NCBI RefSeq assembly: GCF_000518545.1
Contig: NZ_JADU01000009.1
Location: forward strand, 1-64,000
DNA from: Hallella seregens ATCC 51272
Lineage (GTDB): Bacteria > Bacteroidota > Bacteroidia > Bacteroidales > Bacteroidaceae
DNA: 64,000 nucleotides
Reading direction: 5' to 3'
The position numbers and the translations under genes were made by a program. Under the pieces are notes generated by a model. The model saw only the letters and a list, made by a program, of their open reading frames with translations, was not told the origin of the DNA and did not search any database. Shown here one piece after another: positions 1 through 13,330 of the stretch. How positions within the stretch are numbered: position 1 is the first letter of the stretch; each line of letters opens with the position of its first letter.

Positions 1-66
1 CATACCATAGAATTATATGGCGAAAGCATGCGTAAGTTAAGGGCTAAGAAAAGCCAGAGTATCTAA
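1..66 (+). CDS. C-terminal end of an IS21-family IstB-like transposition ATPase (partial)
   Basis: The first 21 codons read in frame from base 1 and end at a TAA at 64-66. The tail (H-T-I-E-L-Y-G-E-S-M-R-K-L-R...) resembles the extreme C-terminus of IstB helper ATPases, where a hydrophobic-IEL-x-G-x-S-x-R pattern followed by basic residues is usual. The gene enters from outside the window. What follows immediately (repeated 20-odd-bp units ending in TTTTCCA near 181) fits the right end of an IS21 element, which supports the call. Only a short stretch is visible, so the assignment is inferential. Confidence 0.6.
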   Translation, partial: HTIELYGESMRKLRAKKSQSI

Positions 67-181
67 AAGGGTAAAATAAAATTGACCCCTGCACCAGAAC
101 TTTACAAGGGGCAATCATGTTGTGGCCAACAGGAGCAAATTCTACTTGGCCAAAAGGGGCAAAGTAGAGTGGCTTTTCCAC
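67..181. mobile_element. Terminal region of an IS21-like insertion sequence
   Basis: Downstream of the IstB-like stop, three related units follow each other: GGGGCAATCATGTTGTGGCC at 107-126, AGGAGCAAATTCTACTTGGCC at about 131-151, and AGGGGCAAAGTAGAGTGGCT near 155-174. Each has a GGRGCAA start and a TGGCY end. IS21-family elements carry multiple such terminal repeats and finish with CA; here the likely outer tip is ...TTTTCCA at 175-181. The opposite end and any target duplication are outside the window. Confidence 0.55.
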
Positions 182-188
182 AAATCAT

Positions 189-310
189 CTATTTTACGAC
201 TACCTTACATCCGTTCACGATGTAGTTGTTCTTGGGCTTGCCGTCATTTGTCGAGACATTTACCCAGGGTTGGGCAAGACTGCCGTCATTTGTCATTTTC
301 ACTTTGCTGA
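189..310 (-). pseudogene. Leftover C-terminal tail of a surface protein (PorSS/T9SS-like end)
   Basis: On the minus strand a reading frame ends NNYIVNGCKVVVK then TAG at 189-191. This is the typical end of Prevotella/Bacteroidetes secreted proteins (GVYIVNGKKVVVK-like) and parallels the end of the large protein upstream. The phrase TNDG(S/K) occurs twice, encoded by a direct repeat of GCCGTCATTTGTC at 240-252 and 281-293. No start, signal peptide or body of a protein precedes it, so it looks like a fragment left by recombination. The IS21-like tip lies only seven bases beyond its stop. Confidence 0.45.
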
Positions 311-384: not shown

Positions 385-564
385 TTAATTGTCCCATATC
401 GAAGATGAAGAACTTTCCTCTTCATCGAGGAAATCCTGCTGTTTGGAGCAGGCGGGTCCGGTAGCGGGGTCATCGTCAATCCCCACGCTGGTGGAACCGG
501 CGAGGATATGGTTTTCCAATTCGATAATAGAGACTTTGATGGCTGGTTTTATATACTTTTTCAT
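385..564 (-). CDS. Small 59-residue protein with acidic, Ser-rich tail, downstream of the surface protein
   Basis: ATG at 564-562, stop TAA at 387-385, 59 codons. The product starts MKKYIKPAIKVSIIELEN, continues HILAGSTS, and ends in an acidic and serine-rich tail (FLDEEESSSSSIWDN). It begins only 23 bases after the stop of the large surface-protein gene in the same direction, so co-transcription is likely. The layout (basic KKxIKPxIxV start, amphipathic core, A-G-S, acidic tail ending in a W) matches my memory of short unnamed genes in Prevotella found beside secreted proteins, but I know no function. It has no hydrophobic signal peptide. Possible roles, all inferred: secretion or folding accessory, or a peptide precursor with an AGS processing point. 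No Shine-Dalgarno is visible, which is common in this phylum. Confidence 0.6.
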   Translation of the reverse strand: MKKYIKPAIKVSIIELENHILAGSTSVGIDDDPATGPACSKQQDFLDEEESSSSSIWDN

Positions 565-587: not shown

Positions 588-3500
588 TTATTTCAGAATC
601 ACCTTGCGTCCGCCTACGATGTACACGCCTGCGGGCAGTCGGTGGCGTGCGGCGTCGTCGAGGCGGTCGGCCACGCGTCGGCCTTGCAGGTCATACACCG
701 GACCGTCGGCTCTGCCCCTCGCGTCGTTCGTAGCGCCACCGATGCCGGTGGTCTCGCCGTCGATGACGATGGAGAGCTGCTTGGCGCCCGCGCCCTTCGG
801 ACAAGTGACATAAGCGCGATAAGCGGGAACCGTAGCGGCGGGGTTGTCGGTCGTTACCTTATGGAACTTGCCGTCATCCTGGAGGATGTAGGCGTTGGCG
901 GCGGTTGCCGTAGCGTTGTCCACGCCGGCTACCGTGCCCACAAAGCTGAAACCTGCGGCGGTCTGCTTCAGGACGTCGGCCTTGTAGGCTTTCACCTGTA
1001 TGTTCTCGCCGCCGAGCTGTGGCACACCGTCGACAGTAATCAGGTAAGGCTTGTAGGCTTCGAGCTTATCCTTCGCATCCGCGAAATGGACTGCGCTGTT
1101 GTCGCCGCCCGAGAGGGTGTAGGCCTTGAAGCCGTTGGCGGGCAGCTCGTAGGGCAGGCAGATGGTGGCCTTTCCGCTTGCGGCGAACGTGCGCTCGTAG
1201 GTGGCTCTGGCGGCGATGAAGTCGAGGCCGATGGGCAGCGGCTTGGCGTCGGTGAGGCGGAAGTCTTCACATGCCCAGCGACTGTTCGCCGTGTCGTAGT
1301 AAACGTAGTTGGTCTTGCTCTTGTCGGCCTCGCGGTAGAGGCCCGGCGTCTCGCCCAACGGCTGTGCCCAGTGGCATTGGTCGGTGCGGCCGGCTTGCAA
1401 CATCTTCGCCACCTCGCCGCTCTTGAGTTGCTCGGCGGTTACCCTGTCGCCCTGTACCTTGCCGCAGGGGTTGAGGTAGTAGCAGTTGTTGATGCGCGTA
1501 AAGCCGGTGCCCTCGTTCAGCTCACTTTCCGAGCAGAAGGTGAAGCTAGTTTTGTCGTCGCTGAGGGCGTTGTTCGTGCCGAGGTAGAGGCAGTTGTTCA
1601 GCGTGCAGGTAGATTCTAGGGTCTTATTAGCTATAAATCCGGATATATATCTTGCTTTGCCGCCATTCAGGTCGGACGTGGCGTGGAAGTTTCCCTTGAC
1701 TAAGCAGTCGTTAATGGTGATATGGGCAGTGTCATCCGCCCATTGAAGTATGCCCGCCAATGAGCTGCTCCCCTTGAGGTCCACCTCGCTGACACAGCCG
1801 GAAATGGTGGTTGTGCCCTCAGCGTTTTGAATCAATCCGGACAACTGGCTATCGTAACCGCTCGACGTAATCTTCCCTTGGGTGCGCAGGTTGCGGATGG
1901 TGGCGTCCTTCACATATTTGAAGGGGGCAATCTCTCTTCTGTTGCCGGCATCCCAGGAGAAAGAGAGCGTGTGTCCCTGTCCGTCGAATGTGCCGTAATA
2001 ACGGTTGGGCCAAGTATCGGCCACCATCACGATTTCCGTGCCGAGATCGACGTCCTGCGTCAGCTTGACGTCGACGGCGGGCTGTCCGTTGTTCACGAGG
2101 TCGCGTAACGCCTTCCAGTCTTCCTTCGATGCGATTTCGTAGCAGTCTTTTTCGGTGATGCTGACAGCCACCTGCCTGTCGGCTGTTACGGTGGTGGAGG
2201 CGTTGAAGCCGTCGGCAAAGGTCAGTCCGGTGTAGTAATGGTGTGGGTTGTAGCTGTTGCCGAGGGCTTCCTGCAAGGTGGGCAGACTGACGGTGCCGCC
2301 CTTGTTGGCGTAGCGCGCGGCTACTTCCTTATCTTTGTAAGTGAAGCCCACTTTATAGACTTTCTTCGCCGCGTCGGCGGTGAACTGCGGCACGTTGTCG
2401 GTGCCGAGCGTCTGTCCCCAGAACTGCGTGTCTCTGCCGTTCTGCAACTTATAGGTCACCTCGCCGCTCTTCAGTTGCTCCTCCGTTACCTGCGTGCCCT
2501 GTGCTGTGCCGCAGGCGTTGAGGTAGTAGCAGTTGTTCAGGGTGGCGTTATCGGCGAAGGTATTGCTACCGGTGGTGGCGTTGTTCGTGCCGGCGTAGAG
2601 GCAGTTGGTCAGCGTGCAGGTGCCGCCCTGATAGTCTACAAATCCGCCGATACTCTTCTTCGCGGAGTTGAGCGCTCCCTTGACGACGCAGTCGGTGATA
2701 ATAACCTCGGTATTGAGGTTTACCATATGAATCATGCCTGCTAAATAGCTGGAGCCCTTGAGGTCCACATCGATGACGCAGCCCGAGACGGAGATCTTGC
2801 CAGAGGCAGACAGAATCAATCCGGACAAAAGGCTGTTGCCTGTTGCTTCAATCTGCCCTTTTACATGCAGGTTCTTGATGGTGGCGCCTTCCACAGTCTT
2901 GAAGGGGGCTATATTGACGAAGCTTGTGTGATTCCAGTTGACGGTGAGCGCATGTCCCTGCCCATCGAACGTGCCGGAATAGTTTCTGGTCACGCCCACC
3001 ATCACGATGTCCGAGCCGAGGTCGACGTCCGCTGTCATCTTGGCGTCGAGGCCGGCCTGTCCGTCGTTCACGAGGTCGCAGAACGTCTTCCAGTTGTCCT
3101 TCGAGGCTATCTCGTAGGCTTCCTTATGGTTGAAGAGCACTGCCACGGTCTGGTCGGAGCTGACGGTGGTGGAGCCGTTGAAGTCGCCGGCAAAGGCGAG
3201 GGTGTAATAATGGTGCTCGTTGTATTCGCTGCCCATGAGGCCCTGCGCGGTAAAGGTGGGCATGTCGCCGTAGATGGCGTTGTTGCGGGTGGCGTAGCGC
3301 GTGGCCTTCACCTCGTTGTTGTAGGCGAAGTCCACCTTATATATATGTTTCGCCTCGTCGGTGGTGGGCATCGGCTCGTTGTCGGTGCCGAGCTTCTGTC
3401 CCCAGAACTGCGTGTCCCTGCCGTTCTGCAGCAGATGCGCCACCTCGCCGTTTTTCAGTTGCTCTTCGGTAATCTGCGTGCCTTGCGCCGTGCCGCAAGG

Positions 3501-6292
3501 GTTCAGATAGTAGCAGTTATTGAGGTTGGCGTTATTGCAAAAGGTACGCGCCCATTGACTGTCGGCGTTGTTGGTGCCGATGTAGAGGCAGTTGTTGAGC
3601 GTGCATTTGTCATACTGTCTTTTTACAAACCCAACGATGTCTTTATTTCCTTCCCTATTCATGCTTTTCATGTCGCCCTTTACGATACAGTCGTTAATGG
3701 TAACGTTGGCAGGATCGAAGACTACGGAAATCAAGCCTGACATTCTGCCGTCTTTATATTTGTTCGTGATTTGCAGATTACTGACGCATCCCGAAATGGT
3801 GGAATTGCCCTTCGCCGAATAAATCAATCCGCCCACCTCGTCAGCATTCGCCGTAATCTTTCCCTCGAGGCGCAGATTTTTTATGGTGCAGTCTTTCACG
3901 TAATTAAAAACACCTACCTTTTGATCATTGCCGCTGTCCCAGTTCATCGTGAGCGTGTGCCCTTGCCCGTCGAACGTGCCGAAGTAAGGGTGGTAGTAAT
4001 CGCCCACCATTTTGAAGTAGACGCCGAGGTCGATGTCGGCGGTCAGTTTGGCGTCAAGTCCGTTCTCGCCCTTGATCACGAGGTTGCTGAATGTATTCCA
4101 TTCGTCTGCCGACCCGATTTCGTAAGCATCCTTTTCGGTGATGCTGACAGTCACCTGCTTGTCGCCCGTGACGGTGGTGTTTTCGTTGAAGTTGTCGGTA
4201 AAGGCGATGGTGTAATAATGGTGCTCGTTGTAGCTGCTGCCCACGATGTCTCTCGTGGTGGGCAGGCTGACGGTCTTGCCGCTGTTGGCATAGCGGGTGG
4301 CTTTCACCTGGTCCTTGTAGGTGAAGTTCACCTGATATACTTTCTTTGCCGAGTTGTCGAAGGCGATGAGCTGCGGCTCGTTGTTCGTGCCGATGGTTTG
4401 TCCCCACACCTGCTCGTTTCTGCTCTTTTGCAACTGATAAGCCACCTCGCCGTTCTTGAGCTGGTCTGTGGTTACCTTCGTGCCCTGTGCCTTGCCGCAG
4501 GGGTTGAGGTAGTGGCAGTTGTCCGTCGTGGCGTTATAAGCAAAGGTATTGGTTCTTTCTCCGTTGTTTTCCACATTGTTCGTGCCGGCGTAGAGGCAGT
4601 TGGTCAGCGTGCAGGTGCCGTTCTGGCTATATACGAATCCGCCCATGCCTCTTCTGCCTGCACCGCTGGCATTGATACTGCCCTTGACAAGGCAGTCGGT
4701 GATGGCAACGCGGGTGCTGCCATATATATAGGAAATCAAGCCTCCCGCTCCGCACCCCTCGCCGGTATAGGAACTTGTGATGTCCACATTGCTGACGCAG
4801 CCCGAGATGGTGTTGTTATCGCCGGATACCTCGTCAATCAACCCTGCCAGAAAGTAACTGCTCGATTTGATAGTCCCTGCGGTGCGCAGGTTCTTGATGG
4901 TTGCGCCGCCCACCCTGCGGAAGGGGGCGATGTCGTTTTTGTCGGTGTTCCAGTTGAGCGTGAGCGTATGGTTCTGTCCGTCGAACGTGCCGGTATAAGG
5001 GTGGTCGGTAGTCCCCACCATCGCGATGTCGCTCCCGAGGTTGACATCGGTTTCCAGCCGGGCGTTGAGTCCGGCCATGCCCTCGTCGTTGACGAGTTTG
5101 CAGAACAGCTTCCATTCGTTGAGGTCTTTGATGAGCATGGTCTTAGCCCCCTTGTCCGTGCGTATTACTGTGAATGTTTGCCTAAGAGAAGACTCCGCGT
5201 AAAGGTTGTTCTCATGCTGAGTCATGGTGACGGTTACAGTGCCTGCGGTACGTTCAAAGAAGCATCTTCCTATCGTTTTCTCAATCGACAGCACGTCGTC
5301 ATTAGTGCATTCGACGTTAAACCCGTCATTACCCCTGTTGTAAGGTATACCACTTTCCGTCGTAAAGTCCGAATAATCATATAAGTTATAGATTGCGTTG
5401 GCGTATCCATCACCCTGGTAATACAACACCTTAGGCCGCGGTACCTGGTAGTTGAAGGTTACTCGGTCGCGCTTCACGTTGATCGTCGTGCCGCACTGCG
5501 CTTTGGCAAACTTTTCATTGCTGGGGAAAATGGCGGTGAGGCCTACCGTTCCGGGGCGCTTTAACTTTAGACTTCCGTTATTGTTGACATCCGCAATTTC
5601 ATTGTTGTCCACATAGTACTCTATATTGCCGTCGTACTCACCCTTGTCGAGGTTGGCCATAAACGAATTCGATACGGTGTATACGTCATAGCTGTCTTTT
5701 TCGAATCTCACCTTGGGTACCTTGACGTAACCCACAATGATGTCGCGCACCTTGAACTGTCCCCAACGGGAATTGTTGTGGGTGTAGATGTTGACACTTC
5801 TTGCCGAGGCATCATAATTGTAGACGACGATATTGTTGTCGTCGTCGTTGAGATTATTCTGATTGGCTCCGCTTATCCCCGAGTTCGAGATGGCATTCCT
5901 CTCGAAGTAATAGTCGTAGCCCGATGTAACGCTGCTGATGCGCTTGATGCCATTGGGTTCGTCATAGTCTTCTCCACCCTCCGTATCGCGCAGGATGATC
6001 CAGCGGATGGCATAGCCGTCGTCAACCTCTACGTTGATGCGGGAACCCTTTGCCAGTTCATAGATGGCACGGTTGCCCGTTCCGCCGGTGGTATTGCAAC
6101 GGCTGAACGTGATTTCCACGTTCCCTTTTCGGAGTGTTCTTACAGTCTGATGCGTGCCTAAGTCGCGTGATCGGAATGTCTCATAGCCCTCACGCCCGTA
6201 GCTGTCGCCCACGCCGGTGCTGCCAGCACGAGGACGAACAGGAAGAGGCAGAGCCTCTGAATGATGTTTGTTGTCTTTGTTTTCATTTTCAT
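588..6292 (-). CDS. Large modular surface protein with four repeated modules; signal peptide out of frame
   Basis: The main open frame runs from 6212 to 588 (1874 codons) and ends in a sorting-type tail (PVYDLQGRRV ... GVYIVGGRKVILK), as in proteins exported through the outer membrane by the Por/T9SS system. Residues about 355-690, 690-1025, 1025-1350 and 1350-1640 are four copies of a module of about 330 residues: (W)-N-x-F-x-x-LV, DVDLG, GTFDGQGHTLT, IKNLR, GLI ... ISGC, DC-VKG, NCLYAGTNN, NPCG-AQGT and a VYKV...YTxAF linker. The GLI/ISGC pieces are GLUG-like and suggest a beta-helix. The open frame's first possible start is a GTG at 6212. A perfect signal peptide (MKTKTTNIIQRLCLFLF ... APAWA) starts at 6292 or 6286 but is one base out of frame; adding one base near 6208-6212 would join AWA to DSYGREGYE. 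Either a sequencing error or an inactivating frameshift. Function is unknown; adhesion or glycan contact are guesses. Confidence 0.75.
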
Positions 6293-9322: not shown

Positions 9323-10441
9323 TTATTTCCTCAACACGGGCACGCCGTCCTCAAACGTGACGGGTATCCACAGATGGCGGCTCTCGGAGAGGTGCTCCGG
9401 ATTCCATATATCGGCCATGAAAACATGGCCGGCGCCCTTGAAGAGCTTGCGCTCCCTGCCTGTCGTCAGCTCGAAGATATAGGTTCCCTGCGCCCCGAAA
9501 GTCTTGTCGGCCCCCTCGCCACGGCATGGGTTGGGCAACTGTTTCCACGGGCCGAAGATGTTTTTTGCACAGAACATCCGCGCCGCGTTCGGCGCCCACC
9601 CGGTGCATCCGCTTGTTATCATCCAGTAGACGCCGTCTTTCTTGAAGACGGTCGGGGCCTCGTTCTGCCCCCCGGCAGCCACGCGCACGAAAGATCCGTT
9701 GTGCGACATGTAGTCGTCGGCCAGCTGGGCTATCTGCAAGGTGAGGTTGTCCTCGGAGGAATAGACATGGTAAGCCTTGCCGTCGTCGTCGACAAAGATG
9801 GTCATGTCGCGTGCCATCTGGCCGCCTTCGAGGTCGCGCACGAAGAACATGCCACGCTCTATCTGCGTGCGCCACTCGGGCGTCCACCACGCTTTCAGCT
9901 CGGGAAAGAGAAGCTGGTGGCGCAGGTCGGTGGTGTCGGGCAGGGAGAAGCCGATGGGCCAGCCGCCGGGATTGACTCTGCCCGAGCGCACAAACCGGAA
10001 CGGCCCCGCCGGCGTGTCGCTTGTGGCGATGCCATAGCGCGCCGCGTCGTAGCCCTGCCCCTTGAGTTCCAGATGGAACCACATGACGTATTTGCGGGTT
10101 CGGGCATTGTAGACCACTTTCGGACGCTCCATGATGCACCCGCCCTCGATGTCGCTTCCGGCCTCCCGGCTCACCGGCAGCACAAGGCCGCGGCTGGTCC
10201 AGTGCAGCAAATCCTTTGACGTATAGAGGCCCACGCCCAAGGAAGAATAGGGCTTGCCGTCGTGCGAGCGGGCCTCGCCATACCAGTAGTAGGTGCCGCC
10301 CAGGGCGAGGATGTTGCCGCCATGGACGTTGACATGCTTGCCGTCGCTGGCTTTCCACTCCCCGCCCTGCATGGGCGGTTGGGCAAACGACGGCATCACT
10401 GCCAGAAGCAGCAAAAGGAAAAGAGCGTGCGTTTTGTTCAT
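9323..10441 (-). CDS. Glycoside hydrolase family 43-like secreted enzyme
   Basis: 372 residues from the ATG at 10441. It begins with a signal peptide (MNKTHALFLLLLLAVMPSFA, then QPPMQ). The mature start VNVHGGNILALGGTYYWYGE is the hallmark of the GH43 clade acting on galactan-type substrates, followed by ERPKVVYNARTRKYVMWFH, DMTIFVDDDGKAYHVYSSE and APTVFKKDGVYWMITSG, which are blades of a five-bladed beta-propeller. The likely role is periplasmic or surface exo-cleavage of galactose- or arabinose-containing plant glycans; the exact subfamily is not certain. An in-frame ATG at 10459 sits at the expected transcription start and is less likely. There is no SusCD pair nearby. Confidence 0.8.
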   Translation of the reverse strand: MNKTHALFLLLLLAVMPSFAQPPMQGGEWKASDGKHVNVHGGNILALGGTYYWYGEARSHDGKPYSSLGVGLYTSKDLLHWTSRGLVLPVSREAGSDIEGGCIMERPKVVYNARTRKYVMWFHLELKGQGYDAARYGIATSDTPAGPFRFVRSGRVNPGGWPIGFSLPDTTDLRHQLLFPELKAWWTPEWRTQIERGMFFVRDLEGGQMARDMTIFVDDDGKAYHVYSSEDNLTLQIAQLADDYMSHNGSFVRVAAGGQNEAPTVFKKDGVYWMITSGCTGWAPNAARMFCAKNIFGPWKQLPNPCRGEGADKTFGAQGTYIFELTTGRERKLFKGAGHVFMADIWNPEHLSESRHLWIPVTFEDGVPVLRK

Positions 10442-10462
10442 GCTGATGGTTTTAAACATGCC

Positions 10463-10493
10463 CAAAATTACGGCTTTAATTTTGTTCCGGCAA
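10463..10493 (-). promoter_or_regulatory. Promoter of the GH43-like gene
   Basis: On the minus strand TTG (10491-10493), 20 bases, TAATTTTG (10463-10470). The transcription start would fall near 10458, which is why the ATG at 10441 is preferred over 10459. Confidence 0.65.
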
Positions 10494-10616
10494 GCAAAGC
10501 CGCTGAAATTCTTCTGCCCTCCGGCCGCCTCCCGCCGAAAGACTCGCCGCCACGCCCAAAGGCTTCCGCCTCCGGGGCTGCCAAGATGCGAACTGTCTCT
10601 AAAAAGGCGGGAAAAG

Positions 10617-10648
10617 TTTGGTGGTGTCGCGGAAATGTGATACCTTTG
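10617..10648 (+). promoter_or_regulatory. Promoter of tRNA-Pro
   Basis: TTTG at 10617-10620, 20 bases, TACCTTTG at 10641-10648; the tRNA starts 58 bases later. Confidence 0.7.
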
Positions 10649-10706
10649 CACCTGCAATTCGCGGGCGGGCTCGCCACCGCATGGCCGACCGCTGCGAATT
10701 GCCCCG

Positions 10707-10783
10707 CGGGGTGTAGCGCAGTCCGGTAGCGCTCCTGGTTTGGGACCAGGTGGTCGCAGGTTCGAATCCTGTCGCCCCGACCA
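10707..10783 (+). tRNA. tRNA-Pro (anticodon TGG), CCA encoded
   Basis: Cloverleaf: acceptor CGGGGTG with CGCCCCG, D arm GCGC...GCGC, anticodon arm CCTGG-TTTGGGA-CCAGG with anticodon TGG, T arm CGCAGG-TTCGAAT-CCTG. The terminal CCA is encoded at 10781-10783, unlike the tRNA-Met in this window. Confidence 0.95.
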
Positions 10784-10785
10784 AT

Positions 10786-10826
10786 GGCAAAGGCAAGTGT
10801 CTGAAAACAAGACGCTTGCCTTTGCC
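10786..10826 (+). terminator. Long hairpin directly after tRNA-Pro
   Basis: Stem of 17 bp with one G-T pair: GGCAAAGGCAAGTGTCT (10786-10802) and AGACGCTTGCCTTTGCC (10810-10826), 7-base loop. It begins two bases after the CCA end. It is followed by GTTTATC rather than a U run. Probable terminator and tRNA 3' processing boundary. Confidence 0.6.
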
Positions 10827-10868
10827 GTTTATCCTCGTCCACCCACTGCCGGCCTCGCTGCAACGCCG

Positions 10869-10960
10869 CAAACGCACCGCCGCTGCGGTGCAATCGCCGT
10901 GCGTCCACGCCGTAAACGCAACGCGAAAAACCCGTCACCGCAACGCGAAAAACCCGTCAT
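10869..10960. repeat. Copy of a dispersed GC-rich intergenic repeat (locus A)
   Basis: Contains the complement of the shared unit GCGTTTACGGCGTG...CGGCGATTGCACCGC, and two tandem copies of CGCAACGCGAAAAACCCGTC (10926-10945 region). Related units occur near 21655, 25030, 33388, 44703 and 63085. Reading frames over it are short and frame-inconsistent, so I treat it as a DNA-level repeat. Confidence 0.55.
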
Positions 10961-11139
10961 CAAAACACAACAAAGCCGCCGTCGCCACGCCTCCACCGCC
11001 CGGCTGCAGGGCCGCCGGCAGGTCACGCGCCCACCCCACCGCCGTCACGGATACAGCACGACGGTTCTTAACAAACCTTTTATTACGAACAATAAACGTT
11101 AAATAGCGTTCCATATCGAAAGGATTAGAAATAGAACGC

Positions 11140-11170
11140 TTGCAGCAAACGGGCCGGCGGCCTATCTTTG
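11140..11170 (+). promoter_or_regulatory. Promoter of the BlaI/M56 pair
   Basis: TTG at 11140-11142, 20 bases, TATCTTTG at 11163-11170, 26 bases before the ATG. A BlaI-type repressor normally binds a dyad at its own promoter; TTCCATATCG..AGAAATAGAACG just upstream may be part of one, but no perfect TACA-type dyad is visible. Confidence 0.7.
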
Positions 11171-11196
11171 CCCGTGTAAACCCATACACCGGAGCC

Positions 11197-11592
11197 ATGA
11201 AACAGAAAGAGAAGACCCTGACCAAAGCCGAGTTCGACCTGATGTCCATCCTGTGGGACATCAATCATTCGGCATGCGTGCACGACATTCTTCAGCGGTG
11301 CCCGGAGCCCCGTCCGGCCTACACCACGCTGGCCACCTACATGAAAATACTGGTAGAGAAAGGCTTTGTGGACTATTATAAGGTGAAAGGACAGGGCAAG
11401 ACACAGCTGTACGTCCCCTTGGTGACGCGCGCCGAATACACCCGCCGCGCAATGAACGGCATCAAGAAAGACCTCTTCGGCAACAGCTTGAAGTCGATGT
11501 TCAGCTTCTTTGTCAGGGAGGAGAACCTCTCGCCCGACGAGCTCCGGGAACTCATGGCAACCCTTTACAGCGAAACCCCGGCTTATGAATGA
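11197..11592 (+). CDS. BlaI/MecI-family transcriptional repressor
   Basis: 131 residues. The N-terminus (LTKAEFDLMSILWDINHSACVHDIL then PAYTTLATYMKILVEKGFVDY) is the winged-helix DNA-binding domain of BlaI/MecI/CopY repressors; the C-terminus (SFFVREENLSPDELRELMATLY) is the dimerisation part. I chose the ATG at 11197 because it has GGAG six bases upstream, and because the longer open frame runs back through the promoter. It overlaps the next gene by 8 bases, so the pair is translationally coupled. Regulation is expected to be autorepression relieved by the M56 partner. No beta-lactamase gene is linked, so the regulated target is unknown. Confidence 0.9.
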   Translation: MKQKEKTLTKAEFDLMSILWDINHSACVHDILQRCPEPRPAYTTLATYMKILVEKGFVDYYKVKGQGKTQLYVPLVTRAEYTRRAMNGIKKDLFGNSLKSMFSFFVREENLSPDELRELMATLYSETPAYE

Positions 11593-13330
11593 CCTGCTCT
11601 CCTACTCGCTCCGCTCGGCCGCCGTGCTGGCCCTGCTGCTCATTCCCTACCTGTTGCTGCTCAGGCACGAGCGGCTCTTCAGGCTCAATCGTGCGGTGCT
11701 GCTGGGCATTCTGCTGCTGTCACTGTCGGTTCCGCTGTGCCATGTGCCCATGCCCGCCATGAAATGGCACACCACCCACCTGGACATACAGCCGCCCGCG
11801 GCCCCCGCTCCCGCCCCGACCGAGGGGTCGGAACCCACGGTGCAGCCGGCATCTCAGCCCGATCCCGACATGGCCGCCCCCGCAGCTGCAGGGCTGCCGT
11901 GGACCGTCGTCCTGGGTTGGGCCTGTCTGGCCGGCATGGCGGCCACGGGCGCCGTGCGCCTGATGCAGGTGGCCCGCATGCGGGGAGCCATCCGCTGCGG
12001 ATGCCTGTGGACCCTGCGGGAGAACGGCTGCACCGTCTACTGCCATGCCGAAGACGTGGCACCATTCAGCTGGATGCGGAGCATCGTCATCGGCGAGGCC
12101 GACTACCGCATGCACGGCCGCCCCATCATCCTGCACGAACAGGGGCACATTCTGCACTGCCACTCGCTCGACGTGCTGCTGCTGGCCGCCGTGGAGACCC
12201 TGCAATGGTGGAACCCGCTGGTCTATGTGCTGGGCAACTGTCTGCGCGACGTGCACGAATACCAGGCCGACGACCATGCCCTGCGCCGGGGCGTCGGCCT
12301 CCGAGAATATCAAATGCTGCTGGTCCGCAAGGTCGCGGGGTCCGGAACCTGCGCCCTTGCCAACAGTTTCAATCACAGTTTAACCCAAAAAAGAATTTCC
12401 ATGATGATGAAATCCAATCCCCGCAAGCGGGCCCGCGCCAAGGCGCTGTACCTCGTCCCGCTCGTTGCGCTGGCGCTCAGCGCTTTCGCAACACCCGAAA
12501 CCGCAGGGCAAACTTCCGGAAGCGCGGCCCTCGCCACCGCTCCGGCCGACTCCGTGCCCATGGTCACCTTCAAGCCCCGGGAGCGGATGGGCCGCAAGGT
12601 GGCAGACGCCTACGTGGTGCATTTCCCGCTCAACACCTGGATAGAAAACGTGGGGCAAGGCTCGTATCTGTCAGACTGCGCCACACACATGGCCTTCGAG
12701 GCCACACAAACCAGTCTGCAACTCGACGGCGCAACGTTCGGCAGATCGAGCCTGCCCCGCCTCCCGGCGGCGGCCGTAAGGAAAGTCGAGATTCGCCGCA
12801 ACGCCCGCAAGAACCACATGTGGGTGAACATCATCACCCGGGAAGTCAAGGTTCCCGCCAGTGTGCAACCCACCACACTGCCCGTCGTCACCGTGATGCT
12901 GCCCGGCCGGAACGAGATTGGCTTCGCCCAAGGAACGGCAGCAGCCCAGAAAAGCAACTGGATGAACGTCAGCGCGACGGCGTGGGACACCGACCGTTTC
13001 GGCAACAAAGGCATACGCAAAGAACTGGAAACGCGCCGCGGCCACCCCGACTTCAAGGTCTATATCTACGCCAGCACCGAGGCCACGCAGCAGGAAATCG
13101 GCCGCATGGAGGGCATACTGAAAGCGCAGGGAATCAGCAATTACACCGTCGTCAGAGACCTCACGATTGTTCATCCCTCGGCCGACGAGTTCCGCCAATG
13201 GGCCCTGGCCGAGAAGCAGAAAGGCACCCGCTACGACCAACTGTACAACCTGATGGCCCAGAAACACGCCGGCTGCGACGACATCCGCAAGCACTGGCAC
13301 GTGGTCAAGGCCGTCTACGGCAGGAAATAA
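11585..13330 (+). CDS. M56-family (BlaR1-like) membrane metallopeptidase sensor
   Basis: 581 residues. Transmembrane segments lie near residues 8-27, 36-52 and 105-125, then the cytosolic zinc peptidase motif H184-E-Q-G-H188 in RPIILHEQGHILHCHSLD and the third-ligand region HEYQADDHALRR near 230. A fourth membrane segment (ALYLVPLVALALSAF, about residue 288) leads to an extracytoplasmic C-terminal part of about 290 residues that is not a penicillin-binding sensor domain that I recognise. Thus it is the Bacteroidetes M56 type: the signal seen outside is unknown, and proteolysis would inactivate the BlaI partner. Confidence 0.85.
   Translation: MNDLLSYSLRSAAVLALLLIPYLLLLRHERLFRLNRAVLLGILLLSLSVPLCHVPMPAMKWHTTHLDIQPPAAPAPAPTEGSEPTVQPASQPDPDMAAPAAAGLPWTVVLGWACLAGMAATGAVRLMQVARMRGAIRCGCLWTLRENGCTVYCHAEDVAPFSWMRSIVIGEADYRMHGRPIILHEQGHILHCHSLDVLLLAAVETLQWWNPLVYVLGNCLRDVHEYQADDHALRRGVGLREYQMLLVRKVAGSGTCALANSFNHSLTQKRISMMMKSNPRKRARAKALYLVPLVALALSAFATPETAGQTSGSAALATAPADSVPMVTFKPRERMGRKVADAYVVHFPLNTWIENVGQGSYLSDCATHMAFEATQTSLQLDGATFGRSSLPRLPAAAVRKVEIRRNARKNHMWVNIITREVKVPASVQPTTLPVVTVMLPGRNEIGFAQGTAAAQKSNWMNVSATAWDTDRFGNKGIRKELETRRGHPDFKVYIYASTEATQQEIGRMEGILKAQGISNYTVVRDLTIVHPSADEFRQWALAEKQKGTRYDQLYNLMAQKHAGCDDIRKHWHVVKAVYGRK

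Follow-up and report, generated by a model that had tools for sequence, protein, structure and literature searches.

Linear polyphosphorylated peptides (LPPs) are the described products closest to the system considered here. In their 2026 description by Popov et al. (PMC13381572), LPPs were reported from Bacillota as restricted to that phylum, and their biological role was given as unknown. An LPP gene cluster contains one to three precursors and is completed by an NTP transferase and an MsbA-like exporter. The LPP leader carries the motif YxxPxVLxHQxIxFETxxS, which places a Ser at Y+18, LppA is phosphorylated at Ser3, and the LppS protease has a Ser/His/Asp triad (PMC13381572). YxxP is described as an RRE recognition motif in two papers (PMC12710340 and PMC13381572), and the kinases of lasso peptide clusters are HprK homologues (PMC8498205). 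Short T9SS sorting domains have been described from P. intermedia, with cleavage near T/GI and motifs termed B, D, and E (PMC11969387).

We analyzed a gene, P0001, near one end of a 64,000-nucleotide stretch of DNA from Hallella seregens ATCC 51272, the whole of which we refer to as the window. P0001 probably encodes the precursor of an RRE-dependent, ribosomally made and modified peptide related to LPPs, with an unlinked operon serving many such precursors in trans. The observations behind this proposal are a coding family, the neighborhoods of its members, an operon in the H. seregens genome, the joint presence and absence of family and operon, a catalytic triad, and homology of the operon genes to a cluster that includes a family-like peptide gene.

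P0001 is a real, constrained coding gene. It begins with ATG, spans 59 codons plus a stop, and is separated by 23 bp from the stop of a large upstream gene on the same strand. Homologues were detected in other genomes with E values down to 1.5e-17, and the H. seregens genome contains a paralogue with 67% identity. Against five distinct relatives, dN was 0.25 to 0.31, with dS of 1.25 to 1.73 in four comparisons and 4.85 (saturated) in one, indicating that P0001 is a coding gene under purifying selection. Thus, homologues, paralogue, and dN far below dS agree with the initial annotation that the gene is unlike random sequence. That annotation also had the coordinates, length, 23-bp spacing, and residues right, but both the gene and its neighbor lie on the minus strand. 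A structure prediction of P0001 alone was of low confidence (pLDDT of 66, with one helix at residues 13 to 22) and uninformative. A scan of named genomes with the single P0001 protein returned three relatives, the best of which was from Segatella buccae. The features of this end of the window are listed in Table 1.

Table 1. Positions of P0001, its proposed parts, and adjoining features in the window.
Feature	Position	Strand	Basis or remark
P0001, 59-codon precursor gene (proposed)	385..564	-	ORF list, homologues, constraint
Proposed leader, residues 1-21	502..564	-	Inferred from LppA layout (PMC13381572), family alignment, and spacing
YxxP motif, residues 4-7, proposed RRE-binding site	544..555	-	Y and P invariant in alignments A1 and A3
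Ser24 of AGS (Y+20), proposed phosphorylation site	493..495	-	By analogy with LppA Ser3 (PMC13381572)
Proposed core, residues 22-59, acidic	388..501	-	Family-wide net acidity after the leader
Trp57, in proposed core	394-396	-	Trp within last 16 residues in 65/71 members
Upstream surface protein, mature-part ORF, 1874 aa	588..6212	-	No Pfam family at E<=0.001
Short T9SS C-terminal domain of upstream surface protein: TTGI, YDLQGRRV, GVYIVGGRKVILK	588..785	-	Motif names from PMC11969387
Second CTD-like tail, downstream of P0001 (NNYIVNGCKVVVK)	189..293	-	Reads like a CTD tail

The upstream gene encodes a large surface protein with the C-terminal end ETTGIGGATN...VYDLQGRRV...GVYIVGGRKVILK. This C-terminal domain (CTD) resembles the short CTDs of P. 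intermedia in its TTGI, YxLxGR, and GxYI motifs (PMC11969387). The main text of that paper contains none of the terms "downstream," "operon," and "small protein" and therefore seems not to cover a small gene behind a CTD. The signal peptide of the upstream protein (window positions 6149 to 6286, minus strand) is out of frame with its mature part, and this split may represent a broken gene, a switch, or an assembly error. The second CTD-like tail sits just behind P0001, as if cassettes had been exchanged at this spot. Seven further copies of window positions 1 to 180 occur in the genome at 97 to 99% identity, all within about 400 bp of contig ends, suggesting that this segment is probably a repeated or mobile element.

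P0001 belongs to a large peptide family. From the first matches we constructed profile A1 (27 rows), followed by profile A3 (57 rows). At an E value of <=0.01, A3 detected the family in 138 of the 150 genomes surveyed within the genus, including that of H. seregens, so that homologues, whose absence elsewhere the initial annotation would have held against the gene, are widespread. The H. seregens genome contained 18 A3 matches, and another genome, G122, contained 37. Among 295 genomes of the class, H. seregens and eight others had matches at E<=0.001, with one of the eight belonging to the same genus. Members share a YxxP motif near the start, a Ser in the middle about 20 residues later, a Lys, an acidic stretch, and a late Trp. 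The Y and P of YxxP are invariant in alignments A1 and A3, and the motif is present in all 71 members of our working set, a count that is partly due to selection because some of the added ORFs were required to show YxxP. A Ser occurs exactly at Y+20 in 46 of these 71 members and somewhere between Y+17 and Y+25 in every one, with AGS as the commonest Ser triplet (24 members). In 65 members the late Trp is among the final 16 residues, and every one of the 71 has a net acidic part after its leader. The run of Ser residues in P0001 is particular to this copy and not general in the family; the sharply defined layout noted in the initial annotation is correct residue by residue for P0001, but its poly-Ser tail is not a family trait.

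We found no credible family when the peptide was compared with Pfam and NCBIfam models, no match to it with GG-leader models, and no match between profile A1 and solved structures. Likewise, we did not recognize the family in open-access literature on small Prevotella proteins, small ORFs associated with the T9SS, RiPP leaders with the T9SS, or fimbrillin phase variation. Family-like peptides were also present in family f14, behind proteins with tails that read as long T9SS domains, and in family f44, 4 to 18 bp before lipoprotein-like ORFs.

For analysis of genomic neighborhoods, we used 47 members, comprising all 18 from H. seregens and 29 from G122 (28 of its 37 A3 matches and one from another search). 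A script placed 26 downstream of a CTD-tailed ORF (class A) and 18 upstream of a lipobox ORF (class B), leaving three unclassified. By eye, two of these three belonged to class A, with a short or broken CTD ORF, and one to class B. One site that the script had assigned to class A, with its CTD 467 bp away and a lipobox ORF 28 bp downstream, was better placed in class B. In total, 27 members were behind T9SS-tailed cargo and 20 were before predicted lipoproteins, so that all 47 adjoined a gene for a predicted surface protein. When the same rules were applied to 285 control genes in 20 loci chosen without regard to peptides, none satisfied the class A rule and 42 satisfied the class B rule, which is loose; a strict class B rule (an ORF of >=300 amino acids within 250 bp) was satisfied by 3 of the 285 controls versus 18 of the 47 members. 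The initial annotation had supposed that such genes are scattered beside secreted proteins and had regarded homologues located elsewhere as evidence to the contrary. Its supposition is upheld by the 18 of 18 H. seregens matches and 29 of 29 examined G122 matches that adjoin a CTD-tailed or predicted lipoprotein gene, with none of the 47 located elsewhere.

The proteins on the two sides were of several types. Among eight class A proteins scanned, BspA-type leucine-rich repeats were found in four and an M6 peptidase domain in one, with no family matched by the other three; among nine class B proteins scanned, two were fimbrillin-like (Mfa_like_1) and seven had no match. A family member stood behind 12 of 55 CTD tails in H. 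seregens and 16 of 32 in G122 (manual count), fractions that are biased because the CTD profile came mostly from member-associated tails. Loci L057 and L058 encode the same CTD and nearly the same peptide with different N-terminal parts of the surface protein, and because peptide type tracks CTD type in this way, a CTD tail and its peptide may travel as one cassette.

Many copies on the lipoprotein side (e.g., L046, L048, L067, L068, L072, L079, L267, and L268) carry a conserved leader before the peptide gene. This leader consists of a dinucleotide repeat of 10 to 35 units, (CT)n in H. seregens and (AC)n in G122, with a strong hairpin 75 to 77 bp later. Repeat and hairpin were present in 13 of 18 loci scanned, and the hairpin arms vary together by eye. 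A leader of such variable repeat length looks like a phase-variable switch ahead of the peptide gene and the fimbrillin-like gene. Rfam comparison of four lipoprotein-side loci gave one match, in the hairpin region and far below the gathering score.

The candidate maturation operon of H. seregens lies in locus L206, with genes for a kinase (10761 to 11645), a protease (10294 to 10743), and an RRE (9899 to 10177), all on the minus strand. The RRE is a discrete PqqD-type protein (PF05402, E=1.3e-12), and among solved structures the RRE profile matched PbaB1 (9x90, E=1.7e-4), FusB1, LppB (9x8z, E=0.0086), and TbiB1; rows from L212, L215, L220, and L222 were left out of the RRE alignment (A6). The kinase is a conserved P-loop protein to which HprK-related models match weakly (E=0.0014 in L208 and 4e-9 in the f14 homologue). 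In the protease, S31, H69, and D84 are invariant in 20 of 20 sequences. TIGR02228 matched the f14 homologue at E=2.7e-10 and the L208 protease at 0.043, both under the cut-off of the model; signal peptidase and SEC11 structures matched at 0.0025 to 0.07, and no Pfam model matched the H. seregens protease at E<=0.01. Kinase and protease thus match Pfam and NCBIfam models only below curated cut-offs.

In 20 loci around PqqD genes, all three genes were present in 19 (L208 being the query source and L220 and L224 being divergent), whereas in the PqqD locus of G004 only the protease of the trio was matched. The operon runs directly behind a sigma-factor-like gene, which we take to be rpoD, in five of six loci with ORFs listed. 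No exporter, NTP transferase, or precursor was recognized beside the H. seregens operon in the ORF list of its locus, and the precursors of this genome are scattered away from the operon. Some relatives have further genes nearby. In G361, a member of f14 (a different family of the class), the gene for a family-like peptide lies 82 bp before genes for a PqqD-type RRE, an HprK-like kinase, and a signal-peptidase-like protease in that order, with NTP_transf_5 nearby and the contig ending about 0.3 kb past the peptide. An ABC exporter follows the operon in G045 (by Pfam) and G055 (by reading). In G004, one ORF of 679 amino acids (L221, 7662 to 9701) combines a signal-peptidase-like domain with an ABC exporter, NTP_transf_5 is about 3 kb from this fused protease, and a YxxP peptide precedes a lipoprotein-like ORF. 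Some genomes also contain further clusters of PqqD-like ORFs and HprK-like kinases (L276, L278, L279, and L280), two of which lie beside radical-SAM-like proteins by reading and are possibly other peptide-modification systems.

By analogy with LPPs, we infer a pathway in which the PqqD-type RRE would bind the YxxP leader, the HprK-like kinase would phosphorylate the Ser of AGS (Ser24 in P0001), and the signal-peptidase-like protease would cut just before AGS (...ENHIL/AGSTSVG...). The released acidic core would then be exported and may act with the neighboring surface protein or be made in step with it. Many precursors across the genome would share the one unlinked maturation operon acting in trans. 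The suggestion in the initial annotation that AGS may be a processing site in a peptide precursor draws its support from this same analogy.

Family and operon tend to occur together. PqqD (127 of 150 genomes) shows a pattern similar to that of the kinase (128 of 150 genomes), which had one match in 112 genomes and more than one in 16. Family and kinase were both present in 126 genomes, with the family only in 12, the kinase only in 2, and neither in 10 (Fisher p=3e-8, inflated by kinship); the corresponding numbers for 69 good genomes were 59, 2, 2, and 6 (p=6e-6, likewise inflated). Closer inspection revealed a YxxP peptide in both kinase-only genomes (G045 and G004), and because G045 was scored 0 for the family and yet has a member, absence calls can err. 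The ten genomes with neither were scored by profile matches alone, and the kinase-less G145 and G148 were assigned by elimination from the match list. Most of the 12 genomes with the family and no kinase match are incomplete; the good ones are G130 (nine matches) and G032 (one match).

Because relatedness inflates the Fisher p values, we made a PorU tree of 40 genomes, consisting of 11 of the 12 family-less genomes, G032, G130, and 27 others of our choosing. On this tree, kinase absence corresponds to six changes, and joint absence occurs in three places (G020 and G088; G043, G053, G065, G068, G078, and G107; and G042). These data bear on the possibility that peptide and operon share a lineage history rather than a function, with the peptide being an independent protein of surface loci, such as a translational regulator. 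The relatedness of the genomes and those genomes that have one without the other are consistent with this possibility, but the joint absence in three separate tree positions and the side-by-side arrangement of peptide and operon in G361 argue against it, and we regard it as unlikely.

A second alternative, raised in part by the initial annotation, is that P0001 works in the cytoplasm as a helper or chaperone during export of the neighboring T9SS cargo. Very tight spacing behind CTD genes (-4 to 138 bp) and the pairing of peptide type with CTD type in L057 and L058 are compatible with this role. However, 43 of 55 CTD tails in H. seregens and 16 of 32 in G122 are without such a neighbor, and 20 of the 47 members examined precede predicted lipoproteins instead. 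Furthermore, PorU, which is matched in H. seregens, was present in 146 of the 150 genomes, among them all 12 scored without the family. In contrast, G010 is 99% complete with no PorU match and has 11 family matches at E<=1. In nine of these 11, an exported-protein-like ORF starts 23 to 127 bp downstream, eight of these ORFs being lipoprotein-like; the other two are behind another protein type, and none is behind a short CTD. PorU without the family in 12 genomes and the family without a PorU match in G010 led us to reject the family as a T9SS component. The role of export helper was rejected because the family follows neither the T9SS nor CTD genes alone, and we consider it quite unlikely.

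P0001 as a lasso peptide precursor appears very unlikely to us. Phosphorylated lasso peptides such as paeninodin and pseudomycoidin have in common with our system the leader motif, a discrete RRE, and putatively an HprK-like kinase, and some of their clusters include a nucleotidyltransferase (PMC8498205 and PMC10368454). With cleavage between G and S, peptides of the P0001 subgroup would also have an acidic residue near position 8 available for a ring. Nevertheless, the family as a whole does not keep an acidic residue at that position, as shown by cores starting SPAVQPGGGG, and by reading of the ORF lists around the operons, we recognized neither a B2-type protease nor a lasso cyclase; in addition, paeninodin carries its modified Ser at the C terminus. 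A peptide of the double-glycine type, with cleavage and export by a C39 peptidase transporter of the kind proposed for bacteroidetocins, is extremely improbable and was rejected: AGS is placed where a leader could end, C39 (PF03412) occurs in 52 of the 150 genomes surveyed, and the C39-exported GG-leader peptides of Bacteroidales are similarly small precursors cut after a small residue (PMC10352776), but the leader of our family is different and not matched by any GG-leader model, 7 of the 12 family-less genomes have C39, and neither H. seregens, for which this alternative is contradicted, nor G122 has a C39 match despite 18 and 37 family matches, respectively.

Returning to the RRE-dependent peptide precursor, we consider it possible, with a little less than even confidence, that one kinase-protease-RRE operon matures many phosphopeptides encoded beside adhesin and pilus genes, providing each such surface protein with its own modified peptide. 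If so, surface biology would gain a new layer, and LPP-type peptides a first functional context. If the reading as an LPP-like precursor holds, a system of the LPP kind would be common across a large genus of the Bacteroidota (kinase matches in 128 of 150 genomes and up to 37 family matches per genome), with precursors physically linked to T9SS adhesins and fimbrillin-like proteins. The purpose of LPP peptides could then be tested with a specific surface protein and the gene next to it.

Our search of open-access literature found no report of LPPs in Bacteroidota. Relative to LPPs as described in PMC13381572, the system reported here is alike in its YxxP leader, variable C terminus, and conserved Ser downstream of the motif, and in its discrete PqqD-type RRE and signal-peptidase-like protease with Ser/His/Asp; its putative kinase, matched weakly by HprK-related models, would be a further likeness. 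Some relatives resemble LPP clusters further, with an exporter and NTP_transf_5 in G004, an exporter in G045, NTP_transf_5 in G361, and an exporter by reading in G055. In contrast to LPPs, the peptides retain YxxPx[I] and the Ser, the latter mostly at Y+20 rather than Y+18, but lack HQ and FET. The H. seregens operon also differs in having no precursor within it, whereas G361 has one as LPP clusters do, and in that neither an exporter nor an NTP transferase was recognized beside it. Furthermore, the host is a member of the Bacteroidota, and many scattered precursors, each beside a surface-protein gene, accompany one separate operon. Because leader motif and cluster layout differ, we have not filed the system as a member of the LPPs. 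By analogy, it is most likely a Bacteroidota variant of an LPP-like kind that works as LPPs do; what is new relative to LPPs is the Bacteroidota host, the scattered precursors served in trans, and the tie to a surface protein.
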